A DNA stretch of 25,876 bases from a virus: IMG/VR virus record IMGVR_UViG_3300031749_000032, positions 1-25,876 of that record; one strand, 5' to 3'. The notes under the pieces are model-generated. The model ran no database searches, was not told the DNA's origin, and worked only from the letters and a program-made list of their open reading frames with translations. Of this stretch, positions 477-25,528 are shown in pieces; positions within the stretch are counted from its first letter, which is position 1, and every line of letters begins with the position of its first letter. The translations under genes were made by a program, and so were the position numbers.

Positions 477-2024
477 TTACAGAGGCGTGACGGTGACGGA
501 TTGGCCGCCTTCGATGTTCACGAGGAAGTAGCGGACGATGGACAGGTAGGTAACGCGGATGTTTGCCTGCATGTATCCCAAGGCCACCTGAGACGATGGA
601 TTGTTCGCTGCGTCGATTTCGACGGACCATGCCGCCGAGGTGGGGTTATTCACATCCCCGATCATGCCGACGCGCTGGAGATTGGCGAAGAAGGCGTCCA
701 TCGATCCCTTCACGTTCCTGCGCAGGTCGATGGTCTGAACCTTGCCGGGCACATAACCGAATGCGGCCGCCATGGTGAAGGCGATGTAATTGGTCATGCG
801 TGTGTAATTGTCGCCGTTCGTGCCCGCGTTGCTCGAGATGTTGCGTCCGGTTCTGGCCGAGAAGATATTCCCGGCAGGGGCGCCAAGGGTCACGACTTCG
901 AGCCTGGATTGTGCGGCTTGCGCGATTTCGGCATCCGAATACGGCAGGTTCTGCATGCTTCGTTGGGTTGCCACGATCCCGTAGATCGGCTTGTTGAGAA
1001 TCGACTGCTCCGGGGAAAGCGCGGCCTGCTCTGCCGCGGTGAAGGTTGCGGGGGAAAGCATGCGCTGTACGCCGTTGACGTTATCCTGCCAGTAGCACCA
1101 GTCGCCGACCAGGCAGGCCATGCCATAGCCGTCGATCCCTGCGGTATTGAGCGCCGATGCGCTGGCCGTGACGCTTGTTCCGGGAGGGTTGGCGGAGTGA
1201 AAATAGATGCCTTCCTGAAGTCCGAAAGCAAGCTGATCCGTCCATGTGGATGAGGTTTGGCAGTCCACCAGGTTTCCGACCTGAACGCCGGATTTCCGCA
1301 GCGCATACATGCCGGTTCGGGTAAGCCCATCCGTTCCCACCAGTACGGTGTCAGTGATGGTAGTCGTGCCGTCCGTCCCGCCAGTCAGGGTGTAGGTGGT
1401 TGAGGTATTGGGCGCTGCTGTGGACGTCCCGATGGTCGCAACGACGATCTGAGAGGGTCCACGAAGTCCGGATTGACCGGAATTGACCGCAGATACCGCA
1501 TTTGTCCAGAACGTTGCGCCCGTCCCCGTGATGTTGTCGAACACTTCAGGGACGAATCCCTGGCGCTGGATGGACAGCTTGAAGGTGTTGGGTGCCGTTC
1601 CTGTGGAAATCGATGCCGTGATGGTATTGCCGACGACGCCGGTGTACATGGCCGTAAGGGTCATCCCGGTGGCTGGTGTCGGGGAAGCGGTATCCTTCAG
1701 GGCAATCGCTGCTGCCGTGTCGGTGCCGTCCGAAACCCTGACCAGGACCATGTTTTGCACGAAGTTCTGAACGCTGATGGCCGCCGCCGTCGCCAGATCA
1801 TGAGCGCGGAATGTGACTGGTCCTATCATCTGCTGCGCCTGGGCATTCGTTCCGATACCAAGGATAGGAGCATTGACTGGACCCCACGAACCCACTCCGA
1901 CGAGGCCGAGGCCGTCCGTGGGAACGCCGTTGATATACACCATGCCGGGAGGCTGAATGATGACGTAAAGGTCGGGGGCTTGCAGGCTGGTAACGTTCAG
2001 TTGTCCGGCTTGATAGACAGGCAT
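477..2024 (-). CDS. Contractile tail sheath protein
   Basis: A 515-residue protein that would form the contractile outer tube of a myovirus tail. The N-terminal 60 residues (PPGMVYINGVPTDGLGLVGV and following) show the typical sheath opening, in which a beta strand leads into a glycine-rich 'gsWGPvn' turn. The middle (roughly 100-260) is a Thr/Gly/Ala-rich insertion domain. The C-terminal third has the conserved sheath core with an IDLRRNVKGSMDAFFANL region near 430-450, and it ends in a beta strand region before 'GGQSVTVTPL'. Length is within the usual 450-520 residues. An AAGGA site precedes the ATG. Two hairpins with T-runs lie directly upstream. It is the main evidence that the phage is a myovirus. 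Confidence 0.93.
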   Translation of the reverse strand: MPVYQAGQLNVTSLQAPDLYVIIQPPGMVYINGVPTDGLGLVGVGSWGPVNAPILGIGTNAQAQQMIGPVTFRAHDLATAAAISVQNFVQNMVLVRVSDGTDTAAAIALKDTASPTPATGMTLTAMYTGVVGNTITASISTGTAPNTFKLSIQRQGFVPEVFDNITGTGATFWTNAVSAVNSGQSGLRGPSQIVVATIGTSTAAPNTSTTYTLTGGTDGTTTITDTVLVGTDGLTRTGMYALRKSGVQVGNLVDCQTSSTWTDQLAFGLQEGIYFHSANPPGTSVTASASALNTAGIDGYGMACLVGDWCYWQDNVNGVQRMLSPATFTAAEQAALSPEQSILNKPIYGIVATQRSMQNLPYSDAEIAQAAQSRLEVVTLGAPAGNIFSARTGRNISSNAGTNGDNYTRMTNYIAFTMAAAFGYVPGKVQTIDLRRNVKGSMDAFFANLQRVGMIGDVNNPTSAAWSVEIDAANNPSSQVALGYMQANIRVTYLSIVRYFLVNIEGGQSVTVTPL

Positions 2025-8112: not shown

Positions 8113-9408
8113 TCATTCTCCTTGGTTGGTGAGTTCAGGGTCGTCTACTTCTTTCGCGCCTTGTGCTGCTTTCATCGCAATTTGCATATCGGCGTAGGTC
8201 TTCTTCGACCAAATTGAATCAGGCGCTTTCCACCCAAGCCTTTCGCAGATCTGCTCAGGGGTAAGCACGTTGTTCTGGTAGTACTTCGTCAGAATGTCGC
8301 AAGTGGCCTTTTCGTCCTCGCGATCCATTCCATTGAATTGAAATTTCAGGTACGGAATTCCCAGCCGTCCCTTGAGAATGTCTGAATTGATGTGATTCTC
8401 GATCAACGTTGCCATGGGAATGATGGCCTGATCCCAGTCGCGATCCTCCGCAACTTCAGACGTGTTGCGATTGACATCGCGCTCGATGCTGAGATTCTGG
8501 GGGCTGATGTCGAATGCCGTGGCTATCTCTCGGATCAGGAATTCCTGCCACTTCAGATACAGCGCCTCGTCACCTCCTTGATGGAGCTTCATGACCTCAG
8601 GTTTGCCCTTGTTGCCAAGAATAGGCGTCTGGCCGCGTCCCTCTATTTCGTTCCGCCAGTAATTACGGAATTTCAGAACCTGTTCATCTGTCGCCTCGCC
8701 CACAAAAATCATATTTTGAGGTTGAGCGTTGCTTGCGACGGCGGCGGCATATCTTCCTACGCCGAGTTGTCGGCTGATCGAGTCGTAGGCAATTTCCAGC
8801 GGCGCATATCCGTAGGGGCTTTCAGTCGACGGATTGAGCCGCATGTAGACGATGTCTTCGGCTTTGAGTTTTGCGGCGTTTAGATCAGAGAGAATAGAGC
8901 CGCCTGTGTATCCATTGGCCTGCAGGAATCGGATGGATTTCGGGTTTCCGTCCCACTTGATCACTGGCCTGATCGTTGTCGAATCCACCGGCCATAGCCA
9001 GAGCGGACGCAATGGGTCCGAGGACTCAGCTTGCTCAATCACGCCGGCGCCATTAACCAATGCGTCCTCGATGATCTGCTCCAGCAACGATCTCCAGGAG
9101 TCTCCTTGATTAGGCCTCTGAAAACAGGCTGTCAGAACTTCCGCCGCTTTTTCGTAGGGAGCCCCCTTTACACCGTCCAAGGTAATTTCCCAGCCAAGGC
9201 CGCAAATCGGATTTTTGATCGTGTTGATTGCGCGCCTGGCGTACACCGTTCTGGAAAAGTAGCGCAGATTCGTCGGTGTCGGTTTCGGCGTCCCAAGCGT
9301 GCGGTTCTGGCCCATGAGGCCGACGAGCTTTGGGTATGCCAGGCTTTCGCGTTCTGGCTGGAACCGGCGGCGAGCCGCCCAGAGCCTAATATTTTGGATA
9401 ATTCCCAT
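8113..9408 (-). CDS. Portal protein
   Basis: A 431-residue portal of the HK97-type family, which forms the dodecameric ring at one capsid vertex through which DNA enters. Visible family signs are the N-terminal 'RYFSRTVYARRAINTIKN' helix, the 'EDALVNGAGVIEQA' region, the 'LWPVDSTTIRPV' turn, 'SPYGYAPLEIAYDSI' near 195, and 'FDISPQNLSI' near 305 with the following clip/stem helices. Length is in the usual 400-450 range. The gene overlaps the end of the large terminase gene by one base and is followed by the small head genes, the expected order. An alternative such as a DUF935-type portal is less likely because of the shorter length. Confidence 0.9.
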   Translation of the reverse strand: MGIIQNIRLWAARRRFQPERESLAYPKLVGLMGQNRTLGTPKPTPTNLRYFSRTVYARRAINTIKNPICGLGWEITLDGVKGAPYEKAAEVLTACFQRPNQGDSWRSLLEQIIEDALVNGAGVIEQAESSDPLRPLWLWPVDSTTIRPVIKWDGNPKSIRFLQANGYTGGSILSDLNAAKLKAEDIVYMRLNPSTESPYGYAPLEIAYDSISRQLGVGRYAAAVASNAQPQNMIFVGEATDEQVLKFRNYWRNEIEGRGQTPILGNKGKPEVMKLHQGGDEALYLKWQEFLIREIATAFDISPQNLSIERDVNRNTSEVAEDRDWDQAIIPMATLIENHINSDILKGRLGIPYLKFQFNGMDREDEKATCDILTKYYQNNVLTPEQICERLGWKAPDSIWSKKTYADMQIAMKAAQGAKEVDDPELTNQGE

Positions 9409-10856
9409 CAGCCGAATACAAATCCCGTATCAGTGAGTAATCGATGGAATGCCCTGCTGAGAGAATCCACCTGGTCGTCGTTCGATCCGAAAGGAAACAT
9501 GCCGAGCTCGAGGGAAAGCTCATCATTCCATGCGGCGCGAAGCATGAACACATTTCCGGCTTCCATCTGCGCGGCAAGCGGTTTTGCCCGCGCCACCTTG
9601 CTCCCGGTCTCGGGTGTGAACTCGACATCGAATCCGGAAAGCATCTGAACGAATCTGAGTGCCTGTGCTTTTCCTGCTTGTCCTGGATCTTGTGGGCCGC
9701 TTATGGACACCTCCGATCCATCAGCATGGGCGGTATTGAGGATCAACTGCTCCACGCCATAGGGCGAATCCTGGACACGGCGAATATCAGCAATGATGTA
9801 GCGGCCATCAGGTGTTTTTCCGAGAAGCCCCCCAACAGTCCAGTCTGGTTTTTTCCCTGGCTCTGGAATGGTAGCCGCCAAATCCCAACCGCGAGCCCAT
9901 CTGCAACCAACTGGAATAGCATCGATGATGCCGATTCGATCCGGCCGGAAAAGTGCTCCACCTGGAGGGGCCGGTCTCTGTTGAAGCTGCGCCGACGCTT
10001 CATAAGCGCCGAGCGCCTTTTTTTGTTCGGCAATGGCATCCGCGCCGAACATTTCCGGCCAGAGTAAATCGCCCTCATTTTTCCTCGGATCGGTGAATCC
10101 GATGGAAGTCACGCAACGCCGATCAGACTCGAACTCCGCCGGAAGAATCAGCGTTTCCCAGTCGCCTTGTTCTATTGCCCATCCAGCAGGATCGTTCTCG
10201 TGAACCCGCTGCATGATGAGAACTTGGGAAAAAGTCTCCGGGTCAACGCCGCGAGTAGACATTGCCCGCATGTGAGAAAGCGCTTGAGCTCTCATCGCCG
10301 GAGAATCGGCATCATTTGCACGAATCAGGTCGTCGTTGACGACGATATGGACGCGCTCGCCAGTACCGACGCCTCCTACTGAAGTATTAACCCGAAACCC
10401 TGATTTATCGTTTGCGATAAAGGGCTCAGTCTCTTTCGTCAGCCGGAAGTTGTTCCCGAAATGTCGCTGATACCAGGGAGAACCGATGATCGTCCTCATC
10501 TTGTTTCCATCCCGGATTGAGAGATGGGCGGAATATGAACCGAACAGCCACCTGAAATGTGGCTTATCGATCCAGTGCCACGCCGGCCAGAATACACAAA
10601 CCGACATGGACTTCATGTGGCCAGGAGGTACATTGATCAGAAGCTTTCTGATCTGCCCACAGCTGACGGCTTCAAGGTGCTCGCAGACCGCGTCAACATG
10701 CCAGCCATGCCGATAAGGCGTTTCGGGCTCAAGAATTGACCATGCTTCCTTGACGAACGAAGAAAGGTTGCGCCTAGCCTTTTCTGCCCTGGTCTGCTCC
10801 AGACTTGGGAACGGTGAGCTTGAGCTGGATTGCCTCGAGGGCTGCGAGTTCTTCAT
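9408..10856 (-). CDS. terL: Large terminase subunit (packaging ATPase and nuclease)
   Basis: A 482-residue protein that drives DNA into the prohead and cuts the concatemer. The N-terminal ATPase has a Walker A-like motif at about 75-83 (NVPPGHMKSM), which is the form used by this terminase branch in place of GKT. It also has a Walker B-like IVVNDDLI near 171-178. The C-terminal RNase H-like nuclease starts at about 319 with RWARGWDLAAT, which supplies an Asp at 325, and ends with a conserved NDDQVDSLSRAF segment near 455-466. The start lies 83 bases inside the end of the small-subunit gene. The Ser/Pro-rich first 20 residues may not all be needed, and an internal start is possible. The portal follows directly. 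Confidence 0.92.
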   Translation of the reverse strand: MKNSQPSRQSSSSSPFPSLEQTRAEKARRNLSSFVKEAWSILEPETPYRHGWHVDAVCEHLEAVSCGQIRKLLINVPPGHMKSMSVCVFWPAWHWIDKPHFRWLFGSYSAHLSIRDGNKMRTIIGSPWYQRHFGNNFRLTKETEPFIANDKSGFRVNTSVGGVGTGERVHIVVNDDLIRANDADSPAMRAQALSHMRAMSTRGVDPETFSQVLIMQRVHENDPAGWAIEQGDWETLILPAEFESDRRCVTSIGFTDPRKNEGDLLWPEMFGADAIAEQKKALGAYEASAQLQQRPAPPGGALFRPDRIGIIDAIPVGCRWARGWDLAATIPEPGKKPDWTVGGLLGKTPDGRYIIADIRRVQDSPYGVEQLILNTAHADGSEVSISGPQDPGQAGKAQALRFVQMLSGFDVEFTPETGSKVARAKPLAAQMEAGNVFMLRAAWNDELSLELGMFPFGSNDDQVDSLSRAFHRLLTDTGFVFG

Positions 10857-11442
10857 CGGTCAATGCGGAAAGATCGATCGGCAACGCCTGATGCTGAATG
10901 GGCGCACCGTCTTTTCCTGTGATTTCCTTTCGTTCGATGAACATGCCCAAGTGCCTGGCCACGTTCTCCAGCGCCTTGTCGCGGTCGAGCATCAGAACCT
11001 TGATGCCATCCTTGCCGATCTGGACACCGTTGTACAGCCTTCTGGCTGCACCCTTGAGCTTTCGCGAATCCTGGATGTGCAGATGTCCGCGCCCTTCTCC
11101 ATGACATGACGGGCAATCTGGATTGGGGCTCACGGTATTGCTATCGTTTTCCCTGCAGCTTTCGCATGCTTCACGTCGGTATTCAACGATCTCGTTGAGA
11201 TCAACATTTGCCTGATCCCACCATAGCTGGAGAACTTTTTCAGGGGTGATGTCCGTATTCTTGGCAAGCTGTTCACGGCGTTCGATGAGGTATTCCCTCA
11301 CCCTAGTTTTCCCTAGCAGCTCGGGCCCGATTTTTCCTGCATTCCTGGCACTGTATCCAGACCTGATCGCAGCTTGAGTCGCGTTCAGGTCGATCAGATA
11401 TTCCTCGACAAACCTTTTTTGCCTGTCGGTAATTTTCGCCAT
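10774..11442 (-). CDS. terS: Small terminase subunit with inserted zinc ribbon
   Basis: A 222-residue Terminase_2-like DNA-recognition subunit. Residues 1-55 contain the family opening (KRFVEEYLIDLNATQAAIRSGYSA and then RVREYLIERR), which is a winged or simple HTH. An unusual insertion at 93-120 has two CxxC pairs (C93/C96 and C110/C113) and a nearby His, as in a zinc ribbon, before the helical oligomerisation region ('DRDKALENVARHLGMF' near 150). The C-terminus is basic, suitable for contact with the large subunit, and overlaps its start by 83 bases. It is the first gene of the late operon. The ribosome site is weak, so the 5' control may involve the long leader. Confidence 0.85.
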   Translation of the reverse strand: MAKITDRQKRFVEEYLIDLNATQAAIRSGYSARNAGKIGPELLGKTRVREYLIERREQLAKNTDITPEKVLQLWWDQANVDLNEIVEYRREACESCRENDSNTVSPNPDCPSCHGEGRGHLHIQDSRKLKGAARRLYNGVQIGKDGIKVLMLDRDKALENVARHLGMFIERKEITGKDGAPIQHQALPIDLSALTDEELAALEAIQLKLTVPKSGADQGRKG

Positions 11443-11568: not shown

Positions 11569-11598
11569 AAAAAACCCCGCGCAGTTTCCTGGGCGAGG
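11569..11598 (-). terminator. Intrinsic terminator in the late leader (tR'-like)
   Basis: Read on the minus strand, CCTCGC, C, CAG, a GAAA tetraloop, CTG, C and GCGGGG form a stem with one C-C mismatch and one G-U pair, followed by six T residues (11574-11569). It lies about 20 bases after the likely start site of the late promoter. Late transcription must read through it to reach terS. Confidence 0.8.
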
Positions 11599-11622
11599 CT
11601 TGGAAGAGTATCAATATTTCGC

Positions 11623-11651
11623 ATTATTTGCCGTTTTTCGGCAAAGGTCAA
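11623..11651 (-). promoter_or_regulatory. Late promoter with 19-bp palindrome in its spacer (pR'-like)
   Basis: On the minus strand TTGACC (11651-11646), a 17-base spacer and AATAAT (11628-11623) form a strong sigma70-type promoter aimed at terS. The spacer is almost wholly a perfect inverted repeat, TTTGCCG-5-CGGCAAA (11627-11645). In lambda the Q-binding element also lies between -35 and -10 of pR'. The palindrome is therefore a candidate site for the Q-like regulator encoded just upstream. Confidence 0.75.
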
Positions 11652-11653
11652 GA

Positions 11654-11679
11654 ATTTTTTTCAACAGATTTTTTTCAAC
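11654..11679. repeat. Two 12-bp direct repeats upstream of the late promoter
   Basis: ATTTTTTTCAAC occurs at 11654-11665 and again at 11668-11679, one and a third helical turns apart. The repeats lie just upstream of the -35 element, and the second runs through the stop codon of the regulator gene. They are A/T-tract rich, so they could serve as an UP element for RNA polymerase or as a protein-binding pair. Confidence 0.7.
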
Positions 11680-12214
11680 CACAGATCCCGCTTTCTGAAA
11701 AGCGGCTGTAGAGATCGTTCAGCGCCTGGCTTTCGATCTTCGCGATCCGGGTCTTGATGTCTCGAATCTGATGGCGCAAGGTTCGCTCAGAGATGCCGTG
11801 CTCATCAGAAATTTGCTTCGCATCCCATTTTCTCCGGCAAACCGCCTTCTCGATCATGCCGTGTCGGATCTTTCGCGGATATCCTTCAAGACCCATCGAC
11901 CATGAAACAGCATCGAGTGCTTCCATCCATTCTTCTGACGGAGCCATTTGGCCACAGCACGGGCAGGAGTGCCTGACATCTCCGAATCTGATGAGCAGAA
12001 CATGCCGCTGCTGTTCGGACAGCCTGTCGAATTCAGCCAGGATGAGTCCGGCCTGCGCAGCCCCATCCAGGCCATGCAGCCCTTTTCCTGAGCCGATTCC
12101 ATGTCCACCGAGCAATTGCGTCATCGGCGATCTTGGTGACTGCTGGCCTGAATAGTGGAATGCAAAAATTAAAGCGGCATGCGCCGAGTTGAACAACGGG
12201 GAATCAGTTGTCAT
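11675..12214 (-). CDS. Late-gene regulator, antiterminator Q-like (putative)
   Basis: A 179-residue protein, the last gene of the early operon, directly upstream of the late promoter and its terminator. That is the place of Q in lambda-like phages. The first half is helical, with LSEQQRHVLLIRFGDV near 65-80. It has a cysteine cluster C84-P-C-C87 and a further Cys at 126 that may bind zinc, and a helix-turn-helix near 129-150 (WDAKQISDEHGISERTLRHQI). A helix-plus-HTH design with an 'R(F/Y)G' element is common in phage antitermination Q proteins. The ATG overlaps the preceding TGA in an ATGA. The assignment is inferred from layout and domain pattern. A sigma-like activator is the alternative. 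Confidence 0.6.
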   Translation of the reverse strand: MTTDSPLFNSAHAALIFAFHYSGQQSPRSPMTQLLGGHGIGSGKGLHGLDGAAQAGLILAEFDRLSEQQRHVLLIRFGDVRHSCPCCGQMAPSEEWMEALDAVSWSMGLEGYPRKIRHGMIEKAVCRRKWDAKQISDEHGISERTLRHQIRDIKTRIAKIESQALNDLYSRFSESGICG

Positions 12215-14076: not shown

Positions 14077-14507
14077 GCTGCATCCTCCGCATTCTCGGCC
14101 ATCCACGCCTTCAGCCATTCAATGAAAGCCGAGGCAGTCCTTTTCCCGAAGTGGCGCGTCTGGTAGCCAACCTGGACGATCCCTGAGCCATCCAGAGAGG
14201 GGATCATCTTCGAGGACTCACCTTCGAGGTCTTTTCTGATTCGCTCGTCGCAGGTCGGGTCGGCGAGCATTTCCCGGATGAATTGATCTACCAGCAGCCT
14301 TTTCCACGTTTCCAGATCAAAAGCCCGATTCAGGTGCCGGCATTTCTCGGCAGCTTCCCCAAAAATCGCGTGGTAATGGCATTCTTGATCTCGGGACTTG
14401 CTGGGAGGCTCAACCCTGACGACATACCCGTCAGGGGCATCCTGAACGGCCCTGAGCGCACCAGCGCGGGCGACTTGATGGGCTAGGATGTAGATGCGCT
14501 TGGTCAT
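14073..14507 (-). CDS. ninB: NinB recombination protein
   Basis: A 144-residue single-strand DNA-binding recombination accessory protein. The start is set at ATG 14507, since it overlaps the TGA of the PP-loop gene in the ATGA style used by all neighbours. Family features are a basic N-terminus, 'VVRVEPPSKSRDQECHYHAIFGE' near 30-52, a helix with 'FDLETWKRLLVDQFIREM', and the C-terminal 'QTRHFGKRTASAFIEWLKAW' region. Length and order fit NinB (Orf of lambda). It sits next to the HNH nuclease and RusA, so the three form a recombination block. Confidence 0.88.
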   Translation of the reverse strand: MTKRIYILAHQVARAGALRAVQDAPDGYVVRVEPPSKSRDQECHYHAIFGEAAEKCRHLNRAFDLETWKRLLVDQFIREMLADPTCDERIRKDLEGESSKMIPSLDGSGIVQVGYQTRHFGKRTASAFIEWLKAWMAENAEDAA

Positions 14508-15297
14508 TGTCCGCACATCCCTTCACATTCGTTCCCAAACAGATCAAACTGATCGCTTTCAGGATCGAAATCTATTTGATCCAAAGGAACACAAGACCGA
14601 TGCAAAAAAGGCGTTCCTCTGAATCCAGAAACATTACCCATCGTTTTTTGAAATTCTTTTTCCCAAATAACGGCTCTTTGGAAATCTTCTGGTTCTGCTG
14701 TTTTTAATCGTTTCCACTCTTCGTTCGAGTGGTAAGGGCAAAACACGCAGCTTGAACGTGGCGGAAGGGAGTAGCCGTTTTTCTTCATCCAGTTCAAGCA
14801 GTCCTGCCGTGTCATGCGTTTTTCAATCAGCGGCCAGCGGTTTTTTACCCACGCATCCCTAGAAGGTTTCATGCGGATGGCTTCATCGAGTGAAATTCCA
14901 ATGTACTGTTCGACTCCGGTTTTTTTCCCCCAAGTTCCCTGAGTTTTTTTCGAATCGGGATGATTTTGAAATCAGTGGTGCATTGCCTCATCATCAAGTT
15001 GGGTTTTGTTTCCCCATCATCAATTACCCATGCAGGAGGAGAAGATTGGCAATACTTTGAGCCAGATTTTTTTGATGTCTTGACCATCAAAGCTGCTTTT
15101 GACAAATCGCCTTTCGTCACGCGATGAACAGGAAATGGCAATTGTGTTTCCAGCCAATCCAGCCATGTATAAACCGATTCTGGCTCTGACTGGGTATCTG
15201 CAAAGATAGCGCAATCCGGCATTTCGATTTCGCCGTGTTTGCACATGAGAGCCAAAGTCGAGGATTGAACGCCAGCACCTAAAGACAAAACGCGCAT
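14504..15297 (-). CDS. PAPS-reductase-like PP-loop protein, split by a -1 frameshift
   Basis: The gene encodes a 264-residue phage PAPS-reductase/PP-loop protein, but the frame changes at a run of seven A. The first part (143 residues in frame) has the PP-loop 'LGAGVQSST' near 6-14 and 'MRQCTTDFKIIPI', and then reads out of frame from about 14919. The second frame continues naturally with 'TGVEQYIGISLDEAIRMKPS' and 'SSCVFCPYHSNEEWKRL', which are conserved in the family. The start ATG at 15297 overlaps the upstream TGA by one base. These proteins activate substrates with ATP, and phage copies may serve DNA modification. Lower GC than the neighbours suggests recent acquisition. It may be inactive, or made by frameshifting. 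Confidence 0.8.
14920..14926 (-). other. Slippery heptamer A_AAA_AAA in the PP-loop gene
   Basis: In the zero frame the codons read GGG GGA AAA AAA CCG, so A_AAA_AAA lies in the exact -1 slip register. After a one-base backward slip the frame opens into the rest of the family sequence. An undercalled eighth A would produce the same picture. Confidence 0.7.
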
Positions 15298-15476
15298 CAC
15301 CTCACCCCCTCAAAAATATCCGCCCTGCTCGGGCCACCGTTGCGCTCGATCACACCGAGCATTACCTTCGCCAGATCCTTCCTTGGCTTCGTGGACTTGA
15401 CCAGCCGAATGCAGCATTCCAGACAGTGCAGGTTGAAGCGACCAGAAGGCTCGGTGTGGGGAAGTGGGCAGGTCAT
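15297..15476 (-). CDS. Hypothetical 59-residue cysteine-bearing protein
   Basis: This short gene runs from ATG 15476 to TGA 15297. The start overlaps the TGA of the 65-residue gene upstream (ATGA), and the stop overlaps the PP-loop ATG (TGATG). The protein is small and basic with a CxxCC cluster at about 18-22 (HCLECCIRLVKS) and another Cys at 3, which could bind zinc. The middle is a helix (KDLAKVMLGVIERNG). Its exact fit between neighbours supports it better than other frames here. I do not recognise the family. Confidence 0.65.
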   Translation of the reverse strand: MTCPLPHTEPSGRFNLHCLECCIRLVKSTKPRKDLAKVMLGVIERNGGPSRADIFEGVR

Positions 15477-18652: not shown

Positions 18653-19333
18653 ATGGAATATTTTTGGTTTGCCTTTTTATTATTATTATTTTTTTACTGG
18701 GTCTTTTCTGAACAAAAAGCCGAGCGGAAAAGACTCGTCAATTTGAAAATCCACGCTGCTGAGATAATTTATAAACACCAAGGTGAGCTAACAACAAAAA
18801 GAAGGCAACTGACCATCCAAATGGGATATGGCCTTGTTGATGATTCAAAGTGGAAAAAGGAAATTAATTTTTTTATTGAAAATCTCATTCTCCCAGGCAT
18901 CATAAAAATTAAAATCAAGCCCACTGATTTTGATCAGATGCGAACCATGATTTATAAAGCAACAGCGTCTTATGAAAAGTCTTCTGCAGTTTTTTCTCCT
19001 GCTATATCCCCCACTGACTATGAGGACCTAGTTGCGAGCAGGCTGCGTGAGTTCGGATGGTCTGCGCGAACCACTTCCGCAACCGGCGACCAGGGCATAG
19101 ATATAATTGCGGAAAAGGACGGCCTCAAGCTGGTCGTACAGTGCAAGCTCTACTCGTCGCCTGTAGGTAACAAGGCTGTTCAGGAAATCATCGCAGGCAA
19201 AACGTTCGAGCAGGCAGACGCCGCTGCGGTTATCTCGAATGCCACATATACCCCTTCCGCTCGACAACTGGCTTCTTCTGCAGGCGTCATGCTTTTGCAC
19301 CACGACGAAATCTCGTCCATCGATCTAGCTTAA
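18653..19333 (+). CDS. Membrane-anchored Mrr-type nuclease
   Basis: A 226-residue protein. Residues 3-19 (YFWFAFLLLLFFYWVFS) form one membrane segment, leaving the rest in the cytoplasm. Residues 119-222 are an Mrr-like restriction endonuclease domain, with E124, D150 in 'GDQGID', and the QCK motif at 163-165, together the D-(E/Q)xK active site. The 'TYTPSARQLASSAGVMLL' region follows as usual. The first 120 residues are unlike anything I know and are A+T-rich, while the nuclease part is G+C-rich, which suggests a join. Placed in the immunity region, it is likely expressed in the lysogen and may cut incoming or modified DNA. A terminator follows it. Confidence 0.8.
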   Translation: MEYFWFAFLLLLFFYWVFSEQKAERKRLVNLKIHAAEIIYKHQGELTTKRRQLTIQMGYGLVDDSKWKKEINFFIENLILPGIIKIKIKPTDFDQMRTMIYKATASYEKSSAVFSPAISPTDYEDLVASRLREFGWSARTTSATGDQGIDIIAEKDGLKLVVQCKLYSSPVGNKAVQEIIAGKTFEQADAAAVISNATYTPSARQLASSAGVMLLHHDEISSIDLA

Positions 19334-21267: not shown

Positions 21268-21521
21268 CCATTTCCGCTGTCTCTCATCTTCTCGCCGCCC
21301 TCGATGAAGAGCTTGTGAGGAACGAAGCCGAATTCGCCAGGCTGATCAGCCTGCACCGGATGAACAGCATAGACATCGCAAGGAAGCAGGGCGAGAACGA
21401 ACAGATATTCCGCGAGCTGCAGGTTCTATTCGCCAAGCAGACGGCGATCCAGGAGGCGCTGGGAATCGCAAGGCAGACCCCGCATCCGTTTTATTCAATC
21501 AATGGAGGAAAAGCAGCATGA
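21264..21521 (+). CDS. Hypothetical 85-residue helical protein
   Basis: The start overlaps the preceding stop by ATGA and the end overlaps the YqaJ-type gene in the same way. The product is almost all helix with heptad-like spacing (ALDEELVRNEAEFARLISLH and GENEQIFRELQVLFAKQTAIQ), so a short coiled coil is likely. The position next to the recombinase suggests an accessory role in recombination or in inhibiting host RecBCD, but nothing in the sequence proves this. Confidence 0.6.
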   Translation: MTISAVSHLLAALDEELVRNEAEFARLISLHRMNSIDIARKQGENEQIFRELQVLFAKQTAIQEALGIARQTPHPFYSINGGKAA

Positions 21522-22420
21522 ACGCACCAATGAATGCGAGCCTCGATCGCCAGAAATACCTGGGCGGATCGGATGTCGCAGCGATTCTGGGGATTTCACC
21601 TTGGAAAACCGCCCTCGATGTCTATCTGGACAAGGTTCAGGGTCGCGTGGAAATCACCGATCCTGACCGGGTGAAGATCCTGACGCGTGGCAAGCGCATG
21701 GAGCCCTATGTCATCGACCTCTTGGCTGAGGAAACGGGGCTTGAGATCGTCGCTAGGGGAAACCGCTACATCGATGCAGAATACGGCTTCATTGCCGCCG
21801 AGATCGACGCAGAAGCATCCAGCGGCGAGAACATCGAGATCAAGACCGTCAGCCCATTCAAGGCGAAGGAATGGGGCGAAGTGAAAACCGACGAAATTCC
21901 CCTGCATTATGCCGCCCAGGCCATGCACGGTCTGATGGTGACAGACAAGGATGTCTGCGTGTTCGGCGTCCTGATCGGGGCCGACGATTTCCGCACCTAC
22001 CGAATCGAACGCGACGATATCACCATCCAGGCAATCCGAGAAAAGGAGGTTGAATTCTGGGGTCGCGTGCAGCGCATGGAAGCGCCGGAGCCTTCTTCTG
22101 TCGAGGACATCAAGCGGCTTTATGGCAAGGATGCCGGGCTGTTTATCGAAGCCTCTCAGGAAATCCAGGCCGACTTGATCGCGCTAAAGGCCTTGAAGGA
22201 CGAGGCGAAGCAGATCAACGCGCTGATCGAGGCGCGGGAGGATCGCATCAAGATTTTCATGGCGGACGCGGCAATCCTGACCATGCATGGCATGCAGGTC
22301 GCCAGCTGGAAATCTGGCATACAAAACCGATTCGATTCCAAGGCATTCGAAGCGGCGCACCCAGACCTGGCAGCGCAATTTCGCAAGACCATCGAAACCC
22401 GGACTTTCCGGATCAAATAG
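21518..22420 (+). CDS. YqaJ-type viral exonuclease
   Basis: A 300-residue PD-(D/E)xK exonuclease of the YqaJ/lambda Exo group, which degrades one strand from double-strand ends to prepare for annealing by RecT. Family marks are 'LGGSDVAAILGISPWKTALDVYL' near 15-37, an acid at D97 (AEIDAEA), the ExK pair E107/K109 (IEIKTVS), and Gln 134 in 'HYAAQAMHGLM'. The C-terminal half is a helical region with 'LKALKDEAKQINALIEAREDRIK'. A GGAGG site precedes the ATG. It is followed 12 bases later by recT, the classical pair. Confidence 0.9.
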   Translation: MNAPMNASLDRQKYLGGSDVAAILGISPWKTALDVYLDKVQGRVEITDPDRVKILTRGKRMEPYVIDLLAEETGLEIVARGNRYIDAEYGFIAAEIDAEASSGENIEIKTVSPFKAKEWGEVKTDEIPLHYAAQAMHGLMVTDKDVCVFGVLIGADDFRTYRIERDDITIQAIREKEVEFWGRVQRMEAPEPSSVEDIKRLYGKDAGLFIEASQEIQADLIALKALKDEAKQINALIEAREDRIKIFMADAAILTMHGMQVASWKSGIQNRFDSKAFEAAHPDLAAQFRKTIETRTFRIK

Positions 22421-23333: not shown

Positions 23334-23798
23334 ATGGCCATCGATCTCGACAATGCCGTCGCCAGCATCAAGCATTTAAACATCAGGAAGGAAGGTCCGG
23401 AGGATGACAAGGTTCTGGCCGTCGACATGAAGCTGGAAATCACCGCTGCAGCGGACGACATCCTCCCCTACTTCGACCCCGCACTTCGCCATTTTCTTTT
23501 CAATTATGAAACGAACCAGGTGCGCTTCAAGAGCATGGGCGCGATCAACTGGACCGGGGAAATGTTGAACATGGAAATGGAGATACATGGCCTGGAATTC
23601 AGGAACGTGAGGATTTCCAAGTTCATGATCGAGCCGAAGATGGAGAAGGAAGAGAAATTCGTCCACTTGACTCTCTCGGCAACTTTCCAGCCAGATGGTC
23701 GCAATGTTGCCCTGCTTGCGGAAAGTGTTCAGGAGAGCGGCCAGATCATCATTCGGCCGATGAACCAGCAGCTGTTTGATGAAAGGGCGCCAGCATGA
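23334..23798 (+). CDS. Hypothetical protein of the recombination operon
   Basis: A 154-residue protein between recT and the ATPase gene. The sequence is beta-rich with long strand-like repeats (KVLAVDMKLEITAAADDIL; GAINWTGEMLNMEMEIHGLEF; KFVHLTLSATFQPDGRNVALL). A start at 23334 has CTGGAG eight bases before it, and the stop overlaps the next gene by ATGA. Its place suggests a partner of the recombination system, possibly an SSB-like or nuclease-accessory factor. It has no known motif and I cannot name the family with confidence. Confidence 0.65.
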   Translation: MAIDLDNAVASIKHLNIRKEGPEDDKVLAVDMKLEITAAADDILPYFDPALRHFLFNYETNQVRFKSMGAINWTGEMLNMEMEIHGLEFRNVRISKFMIEPKMEKEEKFVHLTLSATFQPDGRNVALLAESVQESGQIIIRPMNQQLFDERAPA

Positions 23799-25528
23799 AA
23801 ATTACCCACATCATCGCCGAGAATTTCCTCGGCATCCGAAGCGTTGACGTGAAGCTTTCGCGCCAGATATCGATCTTTGCCGGGGCGAATCACTCCGGGA
23901 AGTCCAGCCTGCAGGAGGCTGTCAGGCATGCCATGGTTGGAGAGAGCGTCAGGATCGCCCAGAAAAAAGACTACGGGCGCATCATTTCCGAAGGTGCAGA
24001 CTCCGGTTTTGCGGAGGTAGAGTGCCACGGGGAGAAGTTCTCGATCGCCTTTCCCGCGGGAAAGGGCGCGCACAGCCAGAACGATTTTCTTCCCTACGTG
24101 CTCGACGCGCAGCGCTTCGCCGGACTTCCTGATGACCAGCGGCGACAATTCCTGTTCGGCCTGATGGGTCTGAAAGCCGCAGGCCAAGCCGTCAAAGAAC
24201 GACTGCAGGCCAAAGGGCTGAACATGGAAAAGGTCGAGATCGTCTTCCCCTTGCTGCGCTCCGGATTCGATGCCGCCGAGAAAGAAGCTGCAGCAAAGGC
24301 TCGGGACGCGAAAGCCTCGTGGAAAACCGCCACCGGAGGCGAGACCTGGGGGAAAGACAAGGCCGAGGGCTGGGCACCGAAGGCGATCGACGTCGAGAAG
24401 GCGCTCGACGTCGAGAAGGCGCAAAAGCTCTACGAGAATGCCAAGGGGCGCCTTGAGGAATTCGACGCGCAGATTGAGGACATATCCCAACAGATCGGGA
24501 TCGCCAAGGCCCTCGAACAGCGCATCAAGGCGAACCTGCAAACCCGGTCAAATCTCGAGGAAAACGCTGGCAAGTTCGCCCGTATTCAGGACAAGCTGAA
24601 CCGGGACGAAGTAGAGCTGAAGGAATGGGAGCAAAAACTCGAAAAGCTGAGAGCATCCAGAAAATCGCAAGATGCTCTCCCGTGCCCGTGCTGCAACGAA
24701 ATGCTGATGTTCTTCGACGGCAAGCTGGTCAAGGCCTCCATGCATGCGTATGGAACAGAAGACGACCTCGCGAAGATCCCAGAATGTGAGAAAGCGGTCG
24801 ACCTGTTAAAGAAGGCGGTCGCCAACGGCAAGCGCGACCTCGAGGAGGCCAACCGTGCGGCAGAGAAGCTCAAGGAGATAGACGCCGAAAAAACCGAAAT
24901 TCCAGACACCGCTGCGCTGCAGACAAAGATTGATGAGTTCAACGACCAGCGCCGGTCGTGGCGAGCCGATTCCGAGAAATACAAAGAGGCTGCCGAAGCC
25001 GCTGCATCGCGCGAATCCACAACCCAGAAAGCCGCGCAGCTTCACAAGAGCGTCGTGGAGTGGCTCGCGATCGCCGACGCGCTCTCCCCCTCCGGAATCC
25101 CAGGAGAAATGCTGGCCGAAGCACTGGGGCCAATCAATGAGCGTCTCGCGCATTCGGCGAACGAGGCTCAATGGCTGCGCATCAATATCGGCAAGGACAT
25201 GAGCATCTATGCAGCTGAGGAAGGCGCTTCGCCGCGCCCATATGCACTGCTTTCCGAATCCGAGAAGTGGCGCGTGGATGCCATGATCGCCGAGGCCATT
25301 TCCCATATTTCCGGCATGAAGCTGCTGGTGCTTGATCGCTTCGACGTGCTTGACCTGAAAGGTCGCGGACAGATGATCGTCTGGATGCACAGTCTTGCCC
25401 TCAAGGGAGAAATCGACACCGCGCTCATTTTCGGCACCATGAAAGCGCTTCCGTCCGGATTACCGGGCACGGTCGAGGCACTCTGGCTCGAGGATGGCAT
25501 TCTCACAAATCTTCAACAAGCCGCTTAA
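23795..25528 (+). CDS. SbcC/Rad50-like ATPase with CxxC hook
   Basis: A 577-residue SMC-type ATPase. The N-terminal ATPase lobe has Walker A GANHSGKSS at 30-38. Long coiled-coil arms (about 150-290 and 315-410) flank a small CPCC motif near 297-300, a possible zinc hook as in Rad50. The C-terminal lobe has an ABC-type signature LSESEKWRV near 485 and a Walker B-like LLVLDRFDVLD near 510, in which the usual glutamate after the Asp is replaced by Arg. It is shorter than SbcC (about 1050) and lies after recT, so it may handle ends with a nuclease partner. The gene overlaps the previous one by four bases. Confidence 0.8.
   Translation: MKITHIIAENFLGIRSVDVKLSRQISIFAGANHSGKSSLQEAVRHAMVGESVRIAQKKDYGRIISEGADSGFAEVECHGEKFSIAFPAGKGAHSQNDFLPYVLDAQRFAGLPDDQRRQFLFGLMGLKAAGQAVKERLQAKGLNMEKVEIVFPLLRSGFDAAEKEAAAKARDAKASWKTATGGETWGKDKAEGWAPKAIDVEKALDVEKAQKLYENAKGRLEEFDAQIEDISQQIGIAKALEQRIKANLQTRSNLEENAGKFARIQDKLNRDEVELKEWEQKLEKLRASRKSQDALPCPCCNEMLMFFDGKLVKASMHAYGTEDDLAKIPECEKAVDLLKKAVANGKRDLEEANRAAEKLKEIDAEKTEIPDTAALQTKIDEFNDQRRSWRADSEKYKEAAEAAASRESTTQKAAQLHKSVVEWLAIADALSPSGIPGEMLAEALGPINERLAHSANEAQWLRINIGKDMSIYAAEEGASPRPYALLSESEKWRVDAMIAEAISHISGMKLLVLDRFDVLDLKGRGQMIVWMHSLALKGEIDTALIFGTMKALPSGLPGTVEALWLEDGILTNLQQAA
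24387..24421. repeat. Tandem 17-bp repeat inside the ATPase gene
   Basis: TCGACGTCGAGAAGGCG occurs twice at 24387-24403 and 24405-24421, an 18-base period. It keeps the frame and duplicates six residues (DVEKA-type) at the start of a coiled-coil arm. It looks like a recent slip-type duplication. Confidence 0.7.

Follow-up and report, generated by a model that had tools for sequence, protein, structure and literature searches.

A predicted Q-type antiterminator of the AlpA fold and a palindromic late-promoter element in a myovirus and its relatives

The late operon and its promoter region

The DNA analysed here (the window) comprises 25,876 nucleotides, positions 1 to 25,876 of IMG/VR virus record IMGVR_UViG_3300031749_000032. 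Its minus strand specifies the small subunit of terminase (terS, the first late gene; 10774..11442; PF03592, 8.2e-33; phrog_51, 7e-41), the large subunit of terminase (9408..10856; phrog_38, 1.4e-71), a portal protein (8113..9408; PF04860, 5e-46) and a tail sheath protein (477..2024; phrog_23, 2.5e-28). Because terminase, portal and tail sheath are encoded there, this operon represents the late operon of a myovirus, and the sheath gene bears out the initial annotation of the virus as such. A gene for a 179-residue protein (11675..12214, minus strand) occupies the position of Q, and from an AlphaFold2 model, a Foldseek search of the PDB and a family profile its product is predicted to be an antiterminator of the AlpA fold. 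Promoter, palindrome and terminator lie on the same strand between the end of this gene (11675) and the start of terS (11442). The order of Q-like gene, promoter, terminator and late genes, which had been likened to lambda Q-pR'-tR', is present in the sequence with all of its elements.

The minus-strand promoter was found by inspection and by a promoter scan exactly as proposed (TTGACC-17-AATAAT, 11651-11623; 10 of 12 consensus positions), with the -35 element at 11646..11651, the -10 element at 11623..11628, and a spacer of 17 bp (11645-11629) between them. A consensus scan of the region returned two promoters where 2.2 were expected, so that the window promoter alone does not rise above chance and its significance comes from the relatives described below. 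The proposed binding element is a 7-5-7 palindrome, TTTGCCG-AAAAA-CGGCAAA (11627..11645, minus strand), which is perfect, as stated in the initial annotation, and fills the spacer plus the first two bases of the -10 element. Allowing up to two mismatches, it occurs once in the 25.9-kb record, and shuffling its 19 bases produced 7-bp arms in 1e-5 of cases. Inverted repeats of 7 bp are common in the window (29, against about 12 in shuffles), and what matters is therefore its location within the promoter. That the palindrome might act as an RNA terminator was rejected, as it has no following U run on either strand.

Two A-tract direct repeats of 12 bp, TTGAAAAAAAT(C/T), lie just upstream of the -35 element (11653..11678, minus strand), with TTGAAAAAAATC at 11678-11667 and TTGAAAAAAATT at 11664-11653; the stop codon of the 179-residue protein gene falls within the first. 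They are present as first noted, but are not a family feature. Their interpretation as a second binding site was dropped because the relatives lack them, and an A-tract or UP element is more likely.

The intrinsic terminator (11569..11601, minus strand) has its stem at 11601-11572, a GAAA loop, and a T6 tail at 11574-11569. Its stem holds a C-C mismatch; no shuffled sequence was equally stable (-17.4 kcal/mol, z -3.3). The stem begins 21 nt after the -10 element, in agreement with the distance of about 20 bases given originally, and transcription from about 11616 to 11569 would yield an RNA of about 47 nt, close to the 50 bases foreseen. This is much shorter than lambda 6S RNA, reportedly 194 nt according to the initial annotation, but a short leader is normal among the relatives, where terminators mostly end 45-66 nt after the -10 element.

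The first bases predicted to be transcribed, TATTGATA (11616-11609, minus strand), belong to a conserved (T)T(C)GATAC element that had been missed. Sequence conservation makes this ATTCGATAC-like element a candidate pause element: GATA or ATA[CA] was found 7-19 nt after the -10 element in 29 of 52 non-redundant loci, compared with 5.7 in shuffles. Known Q and AlpA systems require a -10-like pause element. In the initially transcribed region of the relatives, hexamers that satisfy a strict -10-like definition (A2, T6, four or more of six matches) were not enriched (p 0.24), and no defined -10-like element is claimed for this reason.

Fold and family of the 179-residue protein

Single-sequence searches of Pfam, PHROGs, NCBIfam and the PDB with the 179-residue protein gave nothing above threshold. 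No antitermination model was found among the matches from Pfam, NCBIfam and PHROGs, and the Pfam families of lambda- and 82-type Q were not matched. In a Foldseek search of the PDB with the AlphaFold2 model (pLDDT 86.7, pTM 0.80; low confidence in loop 37-42), the only matches with E below 1e-3 were the AlpA-loading and AlpA-loaded transcription complexes (7xyb and 7xya, E 6e-4 and 8e-4, probability 1.00, TM 0.66-0.75), the next match having an E of 0.38. The parts of the AlpA fold recognized in the model are the N-terminal ring helices, the inserted helices and the C-terminal helix-turn-helix (HTH). A family profile searched against PDB sequences also placed AlpA on top, at E values (0.019 and 0.054) that are marginal and suggestive only; similarity to AlpA by sequence alone is not significant. 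On the model, the protein is of the AlpA fold and is not a member of the lambda or 82 Q sequence families. The description of a Q-like gene directly upstream thus holds for its position and for a fold seen in an antiterminator, but not for membership of those Q families.

Relatives were detected by tblastn in five phage records and one IMG/VR contig, and a family profile retrieved 268 from IMG/VR and 39 loci from bacterial genomes, mainly Burkholderiales prophages; later scans enlarged the set beyond these numbers. Family members occur in phage contigs by the hundred, and most of them lie upstream of terminase; in Bcep176, PHB09, QDWS and CF418P1 the gene closes the early region. In the first relatives examined, a TTGACN-type promoter directly follows the gene (in CF418P1 a tRNA intervenes); its spacer holds an inverted repeat of another sequence, and a terminator comes next. 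Among the large downstream ORFs, terminase large subunits of several families were identified in eight of ten sampled loci, which indicates that packaging modules of different types are combined with the switch.

Of the 122 family gene ends, 87 have a strong promoter, compared with 63 of 3245 (1.9%) among the other gene ends of the same loci; promoter and terminator together were found at 60 of 122 and 6 of 3245, respectively. The count of 60 is a lower bound, since the simple terminator rule missed the terminator of the window itself with its mismatched stem. After enlargement of the set, a TTGACN promoter lies within 70 bp of the gene end in 147 of 225 distinct loci, and in half of 52 non-redundant promoters the TGA stop codon of the gene lies inside the TTGAC of the -35 element. 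Where no close promoter was found (72 loci), a promoter with a palindromic spacer was located further downstream on the sense strand in 22, compared with three on the antisense strand and none upstream. An intrinsic terminator just downstream of the promoter, as in Q and AlpA systems, was found both in the window and in relatives. That promoter, palindrome and terminator merely coincide in an intergenic gap would fit the number of promoters in the region, which equals that in shuffles, and the frequency of 7-bp inverted repeats in the window, but the identical order of elements in most relatives, far more frequent than in controls, makes such a coincidence extremely improbable.

Two further features of these loci were observed. 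In one clade (L025, L043, L055, L059, L064, L068, L070 and L188) the late promoter (TTTCGACA...TGTCGAAA) lies 0.3-1.4 kb downstream of the antiterminator gene. In several unrelated relatives, tRNA genes (Met, Gly, Val) directly follow the terminator or just precede the promoter (L001:2453-2526, L002:4653-4739, L028:6732-6807, L074:6694-6767, L075, L076 and L099:4663-4736).

Symmetric spacers and the recognition helix

Perfect spacer arms of at least 5 bp occur in 20 of the 52 non-redundant spacers, against 4.1% of chimeras in which the left and right halves of spacers from different loci were joined (p 5e-15). The arms vary widely (TTGTGCA, TCCGC, GGCGG, TCGACA, TGGGC, TGCGAG and others), indicating that symmetry and place are kept and not sequence. 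Looked for across the family, as had been suggested, the palindrome thus recurs as a symmetric spacer site but not as a fixed sequence, the arms differing between lineages and following the recognition helix. About 60% of non-redundant spacers are without a perfect palindrome, including that of L007, the closest relative overall, so that symmetric binding is not obligatory.

The relationship between protein and spacer was explored with partial Mantel tests on 74 proteins below 80% identity, with overall identity regressed out. The recognition helix correlated with spacer words (r 0.143, p 2e-4), and HTH segments 122-143 were likewise positive, while all 11 segments outside the HTH gave p values of 0.14 or more. 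The signal had been weak when half-site and helix were first compared in 45 proteins (r 0.10-0.13, p 0.018 and 0.005) and became clear with the 74. By these sequence comparisons, the recognition helix tracks the spacer beyond overall relatedness, and the two appear to have evolved together. Residues E143, R144, T145 and R147 of the window protein align with K138, S139, T140 and H142 of AlpA, so that the covarying residues of the phage family correspond to those with which AlpA contacts and reads its binding element (PMC9371919).

Among proteins with R143, residue 144 matched the half-site in 30 of 35 cases, against 12.0 by permutation (p 5e-5). Aspartate at this position went with CCGC in six of nine proteins, asparagine with [TG]GCA in 14 of 15, histidine with GCCA in three of four, and glutamine, glutamate or threonine with GACA in all six. 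The D and N classes were set on the first set of loci, before those from L126 onwards were fetched, and the H and Q/E/T classes afterwards. In the later-fetched loci, all eight RNT proteins carry [TG]GCA, while the D class matched CCGC in one of two. Of the far-downstream promoters found later, those of HRQT proteins have CGACA, as expected, although these loci are closely related and count as few independent cases; ARNT was paired with GGGCA, HRNT with GTGCA and DRHT with CGCCA. The helix ERTLR is present in proteins of three genomes, the window, L008 (47% identical to the window protein) and L087 (43%, Limnobacter), and all three have TTGCCG...CGGCAA, the half-site of the window palindrome being common to them. 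L007, at 51% identity, has the helix RSTTF, and neither ERTLR nor this site.

These pairings can be put together as a partial code, in which R-D-T would read CCGC, R-N-T [TG]GCA, R-H-T GCCA, R-Q/E/T-T GACA and E-R-T-L-R TTGCCG. We put the chances at about even for the joint proposal that this family of AlpA-fold phage antiterminators loads as a symmetric pair on late-promoter palindromes and has diversified in specificity through such a simple helix code. If the code is true, the binding site of each phage would be predictable from its protein, and a natural recognition code of this kind would make specificity testable by simple swaps.

The covariation also bears on whether the palindrome serves the neighbouring protein at all. 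It might be the operator of another regulator, such as a phage repressor or a host protein, with the 179-residue protein acting elsewhere; spacer operators do exist, and not every family member has the palindrome. This is very unlikely, given that the spacer follows the recognition helix of the adjacent protein and no tested segment outside its HTH, that the ERTLR proteins of three genomes all pair with TTGCCG, and that the record holds a single such site. Covariation of HTH and spacer would equally be expected of any DNA-binding regulator, and a position between -35 and -10 is the classical one for an operator, so that the protein might be an ordinary activator or repressor controlling initiation, beside an incidental terminator. 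Against this, the one significant match to the fold, which is also the best, is the antiterminator AlpA, and the pairing of promoter and terminator is far more frequent in relatives than at control gene ends. Moreover, an activator would be superfluous at a strong consensus promoter, and a pure repressor would be a strange thing to find immediately ahead of late genes. Control of initiation alone is therefore considered unlikely, and the 179-residue protein is very probably an AlpA-fold, Q-type processive antiterminator of the late genes, operating the switch as proposed.

Proposed mechanism and known systems

Q-type antitermination with a palindromic site on a myovirus late operon, as the initial annotation had it, is the best reading of a predicted fold, an architecture and a covariation that agree. 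In the absence of the protein, polymerase would start at the strong minus-strand promoter near 11616 and stop after about 47 nt at the terminator. The protein would be made late in the early operon, and its C-terminal HTH would bind the palindrome between -35 and -10, probably through two protomers related by the symmetry of the site; the covariation is what suggests that the HTH reads this element. It may then load onto polymerase held early in transcription, for which GATAC at about +4 to +8 is the candidate pause element, with its N-terminal part forming a nozzle in the RNA exit channel. Polymerase would then pass the terminator and transcribe terS and the structural genes. It counts against this scheme that it gives no account of the two-fold relation to polymerase: one of the protomers has to be turned towards the exit channel, and AlpA itself is monomeric on its DNA. 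The symmetric site raises the question of how a factor bound to DNA with two-fold symmetry would load a single nozzle onto RNA polymerase.

The closest system by structure is AlpA and its binding element in Pseudomonas aeruginosa (PDB 7XYA, 7XYB), which has the same fold, a C-terminal HTH, an element between -35 and -10, and a downstream intrinsic terminator (PMC7969949, PMC9371919). It differs from the phage family in several respects: a single AlpA molecule occupies the element, GGGACG, which is not palindromic; the -10-like sequence, CACGAT, is defined; and the programme that AlpA controls is one of host lysis (PMC7969949, PMC9371919). GafZ of the Caulobacter gene transfer agent, an antiterminator with a sigma-like HTH, drives a phage-like structural operon and has an element (ZBE) with a near-perfect inverted repeat (GCGCCCG-CTGGCGC) between -35 and -10 that is needed for binding (PMC11150451). 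A palindromic spacer element is likewise present in the window promoter, but GafZ also needs a partner, GafY, as well as IHF, and its terminator follows the first gene (PMC11150451). Phage 21 Q, and lambda Q at pR', share the order of Q, promoter with element, terminator and late genes, as well as an HTH, their N-terminal ring lying in the exit channel; 21Q uses direct repeats with two protomers and not a palindrome (PMC6606751).

With GafZ as its one precedent for a palindromic spacer element (PMC11150451), the switch is a variant of the Q/AlpA/GafZ kind. What is new is the size of the family and its lack of annotation, the recurring symmetric sites, and the covariation of protein and DNA; a search of open-licence papers found no description of this phage antiterminator family. 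To our knowledge, the number of known processive antiterminators is small, and in most non-enteric phages the control of late genes is unassigned. The results provide a concrete predicted function for hundreds of phage proteins, mostly of phages of Burkholderiales and other proteobacteria, and locate promoter, putative binding site and terminator for most family members.

Elsewhere in the window, a YqaJ recombinase (21518-22420) and an SbcC-like protein (phrog_77; 23795-25528) are encoded on the plus strand, divergent from the late strand, and a protein with an Mrr-type restriction endonuclease domain (PF04471, 6.8e-23) lies at 18653-19333 (plus strand). Two overlapping minus-strand ORFs (14504-14872 and 14869-15300) align with successive portions of a single PAPS reductase family (phrog_424), and the pair looks like one gene that a frame change has split.
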